From the NCBI GenBank assembly GCA_021783515.1, contig JAJXTV010000011.1, forward strand, positions 1 to 64,000: a DNA stretch of 64,000 nt, in the 5' to 3' direction. The position numbers and the translations under genes were made by a program. Shown here in pieces: positions 8,179 to 19,816 of the stretch. How positions within the stretch are numbered: position 1 is the first letter of the stretch; every line of letters starts with the position of its first letter. The DNA comes from Nitrospirota bacterium. Lineage in GTDB: Bacteria > Nitrospirota > Thermodesulfovibrionia > Thermodesulfovibrionales > UBA6898. The notes beneath the pieces are model-generated. The model searched no databases. It was not told the DNA's origin and saw nothing but the letters and a program-made list of their open reading frames with translations.

Positions 8179-9053
8179 TCGGTCCGCAGAAATCGTCCTG
8201 CCTCTTCCGCAATGAAGTTCCTCACCTCGCGGTCGAAGAGGAGCGAGGCGTGGTTGAGCTGGTAGTCCCGGTGTTCGTCTCCATAGGGGAGGACCGAACT
8301 TGCCGCGGTCACCAGCCCGTCTCCTTCTCCGGCTCTCATCTCCTCCGGAAAGATCCGTTCGGGGATCACCTTCATGAGCAGCTCCGGGATGGCGACGGCC
8401 GCCGACTTCAGGAGGTCCGGGTCGGTCCCGCCGATCGAAATATAGCGGGCGGCCTTTTTTGTGTCGTTTAACCCTTCGTAAAACGCGGACCCGGGGAGCA
8501 GTTCGCGGAGACCTTCGCTTCCGAGGAAGCCGAGTATCCGCCTGAGAGCGGTGTCGGCATCTTTCTTCCCGATATTATCGAGCGCCTGTCTGAGCGCCGA
8601 CGCCAGGGGTGAGATGAATGCCGCCCATTTCGCCATGGAACTGCCCTGATGCGGGGTCGCAATCGTCACGACGAGCTTGGGCAGCTCGCATTCTTCGAGA
8701 TATTTCCGGGCGACGAGGCCGCCTCTGCTGTGGCAGACGAGCAGTATGCCGTTGCGGCCGAAGCGGGAGTATTCGCTCATGATCCCACGGAGTTCGGCCA
8801 CCGCTATGGCTATCGGCCCCGCCGGCCTCGACTGGCTCCAGGTGAGGACGCTGAAGCCGAGCCGGGCCAGGTCTGTGTAAGAGGTGACGGGCTCCGCCCC
8901 TTTCGGCAGCAGTATGGAGAGAGGGTACTTCCCCCCCAGGACCCTGGCTCGCGAGGGCTCCGCCCAGAAGTCGGCGTTTACGCCGATCCCGTGGATGAAT
9001 ACCGTGAGGGGCAGGCGGCCGCCTCCCGCTATGAACCTGATATCAGCTTTCAT
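8175..9053 (-). CDS. Alpha/beta hydrolase, lipase-like
   Basis: 292 residues with a classic alpha/beta-hydrolase core: VFIHGIGVNADFW oxyanion region, nucleophile elbow CHSRGG (Ser in GxSxG-like CHSRGG), IATPHQGS after it, and a C-terminal acidic and His region (GEGDGLVTAAS, LNHASLL). These match cytosolic triacylglycerol lipase/PGAP1-like hydrolases. No signal peptide if the ATG at 9053 is used. The frame runs on to 9194 without homology. TATAAT lies 13 bases upstream of this ATG with TTACCG 16 bases before it. Confidence 0.78.
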   Translation of the reverse strand: MKADIRFIAGGGRLPLTVFIHGIGVNADFWAEPSRARVLGGKYPLSILLPKGAEPVTSYTDLARLGFSVLTWSQSRPAGPIAIAVAELRGIMSEYSRFGRNGILLVCHSRGGLVARKYLEECELPKLVVTIATPHQGSSMAKWAAFISPLASALRQALDNIGKKDADTALRRILGFLGSEGLRELLPGSAFYEGLNDTKKAARYISIGGTDPDLLKSAAVAIPELLMKVIPERIFPEEMRAGEGDGLVTAASSVLPYGDEHRDYQLNHASLLFDREVRNFIAEEAGRFLRTD

Positions 9054-16746: not shown

Positions 16747-16850
16747 AGAAGTCCCCTCTCCCGCCGTTTTTTCTCCTGCTGCCCGAAGAGGGCGGCGTAC
16801 GCCCGCTCCCGGCCGCCCCACTGTCTTACGACATCGTAAATCCTACATCT

Positions 16851-16866
16851 TTGTATTGCACTACAA
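16851..16866. promoter_or_regulatory. Palindrome TTGTA-N6-TACAA, candidate enhancer site
   Basis: TTGTATTGCACTACAA is a perfect 5-base inverted repeat about 55 bp upstream of a sigma-54-type promoter, with a partly similar sequence (CTTGCATTCACTTTTGTAA) just downstream. Position and symmetry suit a binding site for a sigma-54 activator or for the Fis-type protein encoded next. Inference only. Confidence 0.35.
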
Positions 16867-16919
16867 AAATGTCTTGCATTCACTTTTGTAATATCCAACA
16901 AAAACGAAGAGATGCGCGC

Positions 16920-16935
16920 TGGCATATTTTTCGCT
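16920..16935 (+). promoter_or_regulatory. Sigma-54-type -24/-12 promoter
   Basis: TGGCATATTTTTCGCT fits the -24/-12 pattern: GG and GC separated by exactly ten bases, with TGGCA complete and the -12 TTGC degenerate as TCGC. It lies 24 bp before the Fis-type gene and upstream of amt, where nitrogen-controlled sigma-54 promoters are expected. Confidence 0.55.
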
Positions 16936-16958
16936 ATGATGTGGCTGCGAGGTGAAAG

Positions 16959-17171
16959 ATGGAAACACTGAAAGACAAGATCACGGCGCTCGAGAAGGAA
17001 GAGATAATCAAGGCGCTCAGGGAGTCCGGCTGGGTCATGGCAAGGGCAGCCCGGAAACTGGGCATCACCGAACGTATGATCACGTATAAGATCTCTAAGT
17101 ACGGCATCAGGATGAAGGAGATCCGCTGGATCGACAACGCGGGCAGCCAATTTGGCAGCCGCCAAAGCTGA
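16959..17171 (+). CDS. Free-standing NifA/Fis-type DNA-binding domain protein
   Basis: 70 residues consisting almost only of a Fis-type helix-turn-helix: LEKEEIIKALRESGWVMARAARKLGITERMITYKISKYGI. This is the C-terminal DNA-binding region of NifA-like enhancer-binding proteins, here without the receiver/GAF and AAA+ sigma-54-interaction domains. It cannot activate sigma-54 by itself and may compete for NifA/NtrC sites or act as a small nucoid-type regulator. GAGGTG before the ATG supports translation. It is followed 80 bp later by amt, probably in one transcript. Confidence 0.82.
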   Translation: METLKDKITALEKEEIIKALRESGWVMARAARKLGITERMITYKISKYGIRMKEIRWIDNAGSQFGSRQS

Positions 17172-17251
17172 GAGGAACATCCGATAGTCCGAAGAAGAAC
17201 GAAACCATGAAGAACATAGTACGAATATCAAATCCAGAGAGGAGAAGTAAG

Positions 17252-18667
17252 ATGAGGAAGTTCCTGAGTGTCGCGATTATGGTATGGTTGTTGTTGCCCG
17301 CAGGCCTTGTGTTTGGGGCAGAGAAGGCCCAGCCGGCCCCGGATGCCGGGGTCACAGTCGTGCAGCCGGCCGCCGCTCCCGCCGCTGCGGCCGCCACACC
17401 GAAGATAGATACCGGAGATACAGCCTGGATGATCGTGGCGACCGCCATGGTCATGCTGATGACGCTTCCGGGCCTCGCGCTATTTTACGGAGGCCTCGCC
17501 AAGGGGAAGGACATGCTCAACACGATGGCGATGTCCTTTGTCACCTTCTGCATCGTGAGCGTCCTATGGGTCATCTACGGCTACACCTTTTCGTTCAGCG
17601 GGAATATCGCCGGATTGATCGGAGACGGAGCGAAGCTCTTTCTTCACGGGGTCGGGCCGAACAGTATCAGCGACCTGGCCGGTACGATACCGGAGTATAT
17701 ATTCATTACCTACCAGCTGACCTTCGCGGCGATCACCGTGGCGCTCGCCAGCGGCGCGTATATCGAGCGGATGAAGTTTTCGGCCTGGATCATCTTTACG
17801 GTCCTCTGGCTGACCTTCGCCTACCTGCCGGTCGCCCACTGGGTATGGGGCGGGGGCTTTCTCGCCAAGCTCGGCGCCCTGGATTTTGCAGGAGGCACGG
17901 TCGTGCATGTCAATGCAGGCATCGCGGCACTGGTCGGGGCCCTGATTCTCGGCAAGAGGCGCCAGGCGGCGCTCCTGCCGAACAACCTTACGCTCGTCGT
18001 GACCGGGGCGGGCCTTCTCTGGTTCGGGTGGTTCGGTTTCAATGCAGGCTCTGCCCTTGCCGCCAACGGGCTGGCAGGCGCTGCGTTTATCAATACCAAT
18101 ACCGCCACGGGGATTGCCGCGGTGACCTGGATGACGGTCGAATGGATGCATTCGAAGAAACCTACCGTCCTTGGCCTCGCCTCTGGCGCGGTCGCGGGGC
18201 TGGTCGCCATAACGCCTGCGGCCGGATTCGTCAACGTCTCGGGCGCACTCTTTATCGGCGCCGCCGCCGGTATCGTCGCCTTCTTTTCGGTAGCGGCGAT
18301 GAAGCCGAAATTAGGCTATGACGATACACTGGATGCCTTCGGCATACACGGAGTGGCCGGTACGCTTGGGGCAATCCTGACCGGCGTCTTTGCGGACCCG
18401 TCGATCAACCCCGCCGGCACCGGGCTGCTCTACGGCAACCCGAAGCAGCTTCTTATCCAGTTCGCCGCTGTCGGCGTAACGCTTGTATATACCGGGAGCG
18501 TGACCTTTATCATCTTCATGATCGTCAAGGCAGTCGTCGGGGTCAGGGTGGACGATGAGGCAGAGGTGACAGGCCTCGACGAAAGCATACACGGCGAAAG
18601 GGCCTATAACATGCAGTTGTTCTCGGGCAGCGCGGTCATTCACAGCCACGGCGAAGAAGGGATGTAA
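17252..18667 (+). CDS. amtB: Amt-family ammonium transporter
   Basis: 471 residues: signal peptide (to about GLVFGAE), an Ala/Pro-rich linker, then eleven membrane helices of the AmtB fold. Landmarks: GLALFYGGLAKGKDMLNTM, AHWVWGGGFLAKLGALDFAGGTVVHVNAG (signature), and FGIHGVAGTLGAILTGVFA holding the second pore His. Exports no P-II gene beside it, though amt is often paired with glnK. GAGGAG lies before the ATG at 17252; the longer frame from 17207 lacks a signal peptide at its start. Probably nitrogen-regulated through the upstream sigma-54-type promoter. Confidence 0.95.
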   Translation: MRKFLSVAIMVWLLLPAGLVFGAEKAQPAPDAGVTVVQPAAAPAAAAATPKIDTGDTAWMIVATAMVMLMTLPGLALFYGGLAKGKDMLNTMAMSFVTFCIVSVLWVIYGYTFSFSGNIAGLIGDGAKLFLHGVGPNSISDLAGTIPEYIFITYQLTFAAITVALASGAYIERMKFSAWIIFTVLWLTFAYLPVAHWVWGGGFLAKLGALDFAGGTVVHVNAGIAALVGALILGKRRQAALLPNNLTLVVTGAGLLWFGWFGFNAGSALAANGLAGAAFINTNTATGIAAVTWMTVEWMHSKKPTVLGLASGAVAGLVAITPAAGFVNVSGALFIGAAAGIVAFFSVAAMKPKLGYDDTLDAFGIHGVAGTLGAILTGVFADPSINPAGTGLLYGNPKQLLIQFAAVGVTLVYTGSVTFIIFMIVKAVVGVRVDDEAEVTGLDESIHGERAYNMQLFSGSAVIHSHGEEGM

Positions 18668-18850: not shown

Positions 18851-19816
18851 ATGAAAAAGCTTTTTCTTGGCGTCCTGATTCTGGGTATTTCACTGGCCAT
18901 CTCACCGGCCGCGCAGGCGGCGGAATACGGCGTGTATGTGAAGGTGGCCGAAAAGGTGACCGGCAGCTTTGCCGACGCAGTGAAGAATGCGGAAACCGCG
19001 CTTGCAAAAGACGGCTGGCAGGTCCTTGCGTCTTACGACGCGGCGGTGCCTGAAGGCTGCGGCTTCAAGGCCCATACGATTGTGGTCGACTCCGCCGCTT
19101 ACGCGCAGAAGATCATGGCGCACGGTCCCCGCTCCGCTTTCGCTCTTCCGCTGCGGGTTGCCGTCTTTACGGACGAAAAAGGGATCAACACCTCCTTTCT
19201 GAACCCTGCCTCTCTCAACAGGACCGTGCTCGGCGACACAACGGAGAAGGACCTCTCGGTCAAGACGATGCAGGAATTATCCGGCATCCTGGCTGCGGCG
19301 GCGAAGGGCACGGTGGTCAACCAGCAGATAGGAGAGCTGAGGAGCAAGGGGCATGTCGGCGGTATGGGGGGCGGCGCTTTCACTGAAAAGATTACCGAGA
19401 TATACAAGAAGGAAGATGCCGGTTCGAACTTCCGCGATATCGCCGCAAAGGTGAAAGAGGGGATCCTCGCGAACACGAAAGGCTGGAGGCTCGTGTATTC
19501 GCTCGACCTCGGCAAGGACGTCGTGATCTACGGCGTCGATAACCGGAAAACCGAGGCGCGCGCCTTCGGGATCGCGGGCGAGAAAAGGGAGTCGAAGAGC
19601 AACCCGTGCCCCGGGATCGATCACGCCCCCGCTTTTCCTGTCGAGGTGGTGGTGATGAAGGACCGCGGGGTCGTGAAGGTAGTGACGCTTGACGAGATGT
19701 ACCGCATGAAGGTGTATTTCGAGGACGCCGGCAACTGGGCGTTTATGAAGAACATGCGGATGCCCGGTGAGATCGAGCGAGAGATCGTCGAGATGAGCAG
19801 GGCCAAACTGAAGTAG
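18851..19816 (+). CDS. Secreted DUF302-like protein
   Basis: 321 residues with a Sec signal peptide (cleaved near AAQAAEYG). The first 150 residues read like a DUF302 fold: SFADAVKNAETALAKDGWQVLASYDAAVPEGCGFKAHTIVVDS and FALPLRVAVFTDEKG. The second half repeats a similar plan (FRDIAAKVKEGILANTKGWRLVYSLDLGKDVVIYGVDN), suggesting an internal duplication. The function of DUF302 proteins is unknown. Two Cys (CGF and NPCPGID) could pair or bind a ligand in the periplasm. AGGAGG precedes the ATG. Confidence 0.75.
   Translation: MKKLFLGVLILGISLAISPAAQAAEYGVYVKVAEKVTGSFADAVKNAETALAKDGWQVLASYDAAVPEGCGFKAHTIVVDSAAYAQKIMAHGPRSAFALPLRVAVFTDEKGINTSFLNPASLNRTVLGDTTEKDLSVKTMQELSGILAAAAKGTVVNQQIGELRSKGHVGGMGGGAFTEKITEIYKKEDAGSNFRDIAAKVKEGILANTKGWRLVYSLDLGKDVVIYGVDNRKTEARAFGIAGEKRESKSNPCPGIDHAPAFPVEVVVMKDRGVVKVVTLDEMYRMKVYFEDAGNWAFMKNMRMPGEIEREIVEMSRAKLK

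Follow-up and report, generated by a model that had tools for sequence, protein, structure and literature searches.

The window, a stretch of 64,000 nucleotides from a Nitrospirota bacterium, carries a very short gene for a stand-alone helix-turn-helix (HTH) protein, hereafter the mini-HTH or mini, set between a sigma-54-type promoter and an ammonium transporter gene:

16844-16855, + strand: candidate activator unit 1, TACATCTTTGTA (ACA-N4-TGT)
16862-16873, + strand: candidate activator unit 2, TACAAAAATGTC (ACA-N4-TGT)
16920-16935, + strand: sigma-54 -24/-12 type box, TGGCATATTTTTCGCT, scoring 19 of 22, 23 bp before the mini-HTH ATG
16959-17171, + strand: stand-alone NifA-type HTH protein of 70 aa, with an ATG start and matches to the HTH_8 and TIGR01817 profiles
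17207-18667, + strand: amt, ammonium transporter (PF00909, E 8.2e-123)

By its predicted domain content, the mini-HTH is a DNA-binding-only protein made of one Fis-type (HTH_8) domain. Residues 10-48 match Pfam HTH_8 (PF02954; E 2.3e-12, 46.9 bits against a cut-off of 22), and the nifA model TIGR01817 reaches 44.5 bits over only its final 47 positions (488-534 of 534), far from its whole-protein threshold of 528.85 bits; GAF and AAA+ domains are both absent. Near the gene there is no AAA+ domain, the genome-wide PF00158 search matching contig C10 only at 99423-99923. These searches, of the protein and of the whole genome, bear out the first-pass annotation of this DNA, which had described a 70-residue protein that is almost only a Fis-type domain and lacks AAA+.

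The same annotation had placed an ammonium transporter next to the mini-HTH, and the PF00909 match agrees. The amt open frame begins 35 bp after the mini, the likelier start being an in-frame ATG at 17252 with a better ribosome site. We collected 69 stand-alone loci from 61 genomes (stand-alone copies among the 61-genome matches plus 20 hand-chosen regions of the phylum), two of which belong to the window's own genome. At 54 of these, amt lies within 2 kb 3' on the same strand (2 kb were readable at 64), and glnK is found within 5 kb at 52. What had been taken for an unusual arrangement of promoter, mini-regulator and amt is instead common in this phylum. Of the 15 loci lacking amt in the 2-kb span, five offer a shorter readable stretch than that, and at several others a porin and an amino-acid permease take its place. 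The first annotated gene after the mini is porin-like at 38 loci, amt at 23, glnK at two and another mini at one, with none at five; the commonest order is mini, porin-like gene, amt and glnK, the window having amt directly after the mini. Here the next gene after amt (18851-19816) encodes a protein that looks secreted and matches DUF302 weakly (24.8 bits against a cut-off of 23).

Could so small a protein be a frameshifted or decaying remnant of a longer activator? Its small size is the one point in favour, and we give this practically no credence. Between the window mini and three same-genus copies (57 codons), pS is 0.77-0.80 and pN 0.07-0.09, so the protein is maintained, with silent sites close to saturation; the L126/L127 pair was left out of this comparison, since a start difference puts it out of register. 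Judged from comparative sequence data, the mini-HTH is a conserved family whose own promoter, operon position and protein are kept over many genera, and also in families outside the class. Conservation across relatives and strong purifying selection rule out a pseudogene, and with it the frameshift that the first-pass annotation had named as a possible refutation.

The family is widespread. In the window's own genome and 60 relatives, 58 of 61 match the mini profile at E 1e-6 when NifA domains are counted in, and reading of the match list gives stand-alone minis (open frames no longer than 152 aa, with two pieces of longer activators dropped, in G033 and on contig 75 of G025) in 42 of 61. Across the phylum, at least 118 of 217 genomes have a match at E 1e-14, a count that takes in full-length proteins; among the matches listed, some stand-alone minis come from families beyond the class (f20, f25 and f34). 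The plasmid collection searched for the mini-HTH gave no match. Nor is the mini strictly a gene of nitrogenase carriers: nifH is found in 33 of 61 genomes, and a mini occurs without it in several near-complete ones (G030, G031, G034, G036, G043, G044, G048, G052 and G059).

The host genome (3.16 Mb, 48 contigs, 98.68% complete) has 22 HTH_8 matches: 19 fall in complete sigma-54 activators, two in stand-alone proteins and one in a frame close to a contig end. These counts bear on the idea of a split activator, whereby the mini, an HTH without AAA+, would serve in trans as the DNA-binding part of a sigma-54 activator lacking an HTH. We regard this as highly improbable, considering that each of the 19 uncut sigma-54 activators has an HTH of its own (contig ends truncate two more) and that the host NifA is whole, with GAF, AAA+ and HTH; no complete HTH-less activator was found in the host genome. 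The second stand-alone copy, mini2 (C4:73968-74150; 61 aa, 70% identical to the window mini), lies in a nif/mod cluster some 12.4 kb away from nifH, with molybdate-transport-like genes on one side and a porin (BBP2) on the other. On this one contig (L049, L050) lie nifH, nitrogenase-like genes with two GlnB-type genes between them, radical SAM and molybdate-type transport genes, mini2 and amt-glnK, several of these names being assigned by inspection only. Downstream of mini2 and its porin (L049 2932-6731) come an amino-acid permease, a PP2C-phosphatase/Ser-Thr-kinase fusion and then the amt-glnK operon.

The AlphaFold2 model of the mini-HTH is all-helical and strand-free (mean pLDDT 79.7), and its fold neighbours in Foldseek, none of them at E <0.001, are PDB 2M8G first, followed by NtrC4 and Fis domains. 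The DNA-binding domain of a sigma-54 activator in 2M8G, which we take to be Aquifex Nlh2, is also the solved structure whose sequence the family profile matches best (E 7.8e-17); unlike the mini-HTH, it is presumably a construct cut from a full activator and not a natural free protein. Fis is free-standing like the mini-HTH, whose model matches Fis chains with a TM of about 0.65 (again with no Foldseek E <0.001). However, identity to Fis is only around 20%, and Fis has N-terminal beta-hairpin arms, which are missing from the all-helical mini model, and it is a global nucleoid protein rather than one tied to a single sigma-54 regulon. The portion of PMC7166090 consulted notes the common ancestry of Fis and NtrC, and describes phage NinH as another stand-alone Fis-type protein. 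Stand-alone proteins of this type are thus already known; in the literature searched, with subscription journals mostly outside it, we did not find in print a NifA-type one heading amt operons, which is apparently undescribed.

The closest relative is the C-terminal domain of NifA (TIGR01817), and NifA is the nearest full-length relative of the mini in the genome. The comparison with NifA that had been suggested at first pass placed 79 minis in one group with 11 NifA HTHs (support 0.868), from which 11 other activators encoded by the host genome stand apart; within the group the NifA HTHs cluster together (0.873), in a short tree of only 47 aligned positions that is silent on which of the two arose first. 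Minis and NifA share the L-G-I/L-T-x-R-x and Y-K/R parts of the HTH and a link to the same nitrogen regulon, whereas the mini lacks GAF and AAA+ and is a separate gene heading amt operons. They differ too in the recognition helix, which starts with ERM in 57 of 69 minis and with variants in 12, its third place always M, I or V; the corresponding residue, read from the alignment, is Q in 11 of 11 sampled NifA. With M or I (one V) in place of Q, the DNA specificity of the mini may differ. At two loci, L125 (G059) and L141 (G031), a mini lies directly 3' of nifA on the same strand, possibly a trace of origin.

How is the mini-HTH expressed? The sigma-54-type promoter reported at first pass holds up: TGGCATATTTTTCGCT has the -24 GG and -12 GC elements at their fixed spacing. 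After seven duplicates were dropped from 65 entries, 54 of 58 distinct mini loci have a box scoring at least 17/22 at 5-45 bp before the start, against a mean of 1.6 and a maximum of 5 in dinucleotide shuffles. L117 scores 13 because its chosen start lies upstream of its box, which is present on reading, while L144 has no credible sigma-54 box upstream. A -12 GC is seen in 47 of 57 mini promoters versus 16 of 28 promoters without a mini; we do not use this weaker -12, since GC itself counts in the score by which the sites were picked, and the genomes are relatives of one another.

Upstream of the box, the first-pass annotation had seen a palindrome, TTGTA-N6-TACAA. It is indeed present at 16851-16866, but as a unit it does not stand: it spans the junction of two tandem ACA-N4-TGT units, and it is this unit that is conserved across relatives and replaces the palindrome as candidate operator. 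In the window, the pair has a spacer of 8 between TGT and ACA and lies 47 bp from the sigma-54 box. ACA-N4-TGT occurs upstream of the box in 55 of 57 regions, with 3.2 expected from simple shuffles; the exact tandem pair is found in 43, a single unit in 12 and neither in two, and shuffles give no pairs. All 43 pairs end 45 (n=2), 46 (n=17) or 47 (n=24) bp before the box, and in 39 the spacer is 8 or 9. The window also has an inverted repeat, TTTTGT-N8-ACAAAA (16884-16903), which lies after the tandem sites and before the box and is not preserved as a palindrome in same-genus copies.

So constant a distance from sites to box suggests a fixed protein-DNA geometry, and raises the thought that the mini-HTH, whose fold is close to NtrC4 and Fis domains, might be a positive or architectural partner, raising or sharpening amt expression by Fis-like bending, loop stabilising or NifA loading. 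Considering that some promoters with these sites belong to genomes without a mini, it would then be an optional helper. We think this unlikely: in 14 of 57 promoters an IHF-like motif (shuffles 0.3) already lies between the sites and the box, 17-18 bp before the latter, and the mini upstream regions show no conserved site for the mini other than the activator pair. The exact IHF-like motif is absent from the window promoter.

Within the host genome, the tandem pattern occurs at four places and the reversed control at none. Two of the four are the promoters of mini1-amt and mini2; another precedes a small YnfA-like gene that leads into amt and glnK, and the last stands upstream of a third amt, where an extra single unit lies nearer the box. 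By their predicted functions, the genes behind these sites all belong to the ammonium/nif regulon. The exact palindrome TACAWWWWTGTA is likewise found at four places, all within these tandem-site promoters (reversed control: one per strand). Host nifH has a box and a looser pair with spacer 10, which the exact pattern did not pick up; candidate sites like those before the mini are present at other amt promoters of the same genome and, in looser form, at nifH, promoters of the kind for which the first-pass annotation had suggested a test of binding. The tandem pattern is present in at least 53 of 61 genomes, some matches not being regulon sites. At the third amt (L150, G000:C47, about 8221-8320), the tandem sites lie 127 bp from the box with spacer 7, a layout (117-138 bp, spacer 7) that recurs before second amt genes of relatives.

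The portion of PMC10590331 consulted gives TGT-N10-ACA as the nifH site of NifA, and this is present at the centre of the host nifH pair. Mini and amt promoters differ in having an invariant ACA-N4-TGT unit and spacers of 7-9, whereas four of the five nifH pairs examined have 10; the window pair, with its spacer of 8, lacks the TGT-N10-ACA form. Perhaps, then, the mini-HTH is a sorter or insulator that prefers amt-type over nifH-type sites, shifting NifA or excluding other activators from amt, and so separating ammonium uptake from nitrogen fixation. The M or I in place of Q and the occurrence of minis in nifH-less genomes would fit, yet genomes without a mini share the amt-type spacers, so that spacer class is independent of the mini, and we consider this role improbable.

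Which activator reads the tandem sites? The operator persists in relatives without a mini, at 45-58 bp from the box and in most cases ahead of glnK-amt or porin-amt-glnK (G028, G035, G040, G046, G051, G054, G055, G056 and G060). The sites are therefore not maintained by the mini; a full activator would read them, and activator and mini would meet at the same sites. By this comparison, the mini-HTH is a layer added onto full-activator control, and the activator is most likely NifA. Indeed, NifA scores above its curated threshold in 43 of 61 genomes, with a best match of at least 446 bits in 52 by our reading, and the matches listed include no tandem site in G010, G027 or G041, the three genomes that lack both NifA and mini. 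Counting against a strict link are, among the matches listed, two NifA genomes without an exact site (G007 and G047) and one with poor matches only (G012). Six genomes have a mini without a NifA-scale match; five are 66-89% complete, and the sixth, G011, at 98% complete, is an exception.

The best reading of these comparisons is that the mini-HTH is a NifA-derived, sigma-54-driven, DNA-binding-only protein and a predicted occupant of activator sites, probably made by the very switch that it resembles, and perhaps made to damp it. Sigma-54 promoters need an ATPase bound at the enhancer. Under nitrogen limitation, the full activator, most likely NifA, would bind the tandem pair and drive the operon, so that mini-HTH and transporter would be made together; the mini, able to bind DNA and with no ATPase to remodel sigma-54, would occupy the same or overlapping sites and hold back additional activation, thereby capping amt and perhaps other promoters that carry such sites. 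The domain, the missing AAA+, the box, the tandem sites, the operon, the conservation and the sharing of sites by one nitrogen regulon are observed; from these we infer NifA as the activator, mini binding to the tandem sites and a negative outcome. Negative feedback by competition at the activator sites of the amt operon, as proposed at first pass, is plausible, and we give it slightly less than even weight. In the portion of PMC10590331 consulted, the isolated NifA domain of another species is a monomer that binds its site in vitro with a Kd of 20 uM, and such domains are suggested to pair only on DNA. By analogy, these data support DNA binding by an isolated domain and warn of a possibly low affinity, in which case competition would take a large amount of mini-HTH protein; first place in a sigma-54 operon would give high amounts. 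The brake would also be dispensable, considering that 16 relatives, by our reading, have NifA and no mini.

More tentatively, we can imagine an ancient, phylum-wide decoy, the DNA-binding end of NifA set free and installed as first gene in NifA-activated operons, a possibility that we hold with some reserve. Were it true, each round of activation would also yield an ATPase-less occupant of the enhancer, giving gain control of ammonium uptake at the sigma-54 enhancer, separate from GlnK. A conserved DNA-binding-only relative of an activator, itself expressed from a promoter of this type, would limit sigma-54 promoters in a simple way, and the mini-HTH would add, beside Fis, another activator-type DNA-binding domain as a free protein. 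Paired mini genes lie close together at three loci, L142 (G052:C30), L161 (G062:C16) and L168 (G234:C7); in G062 and G234, each of the two heads its own amt.
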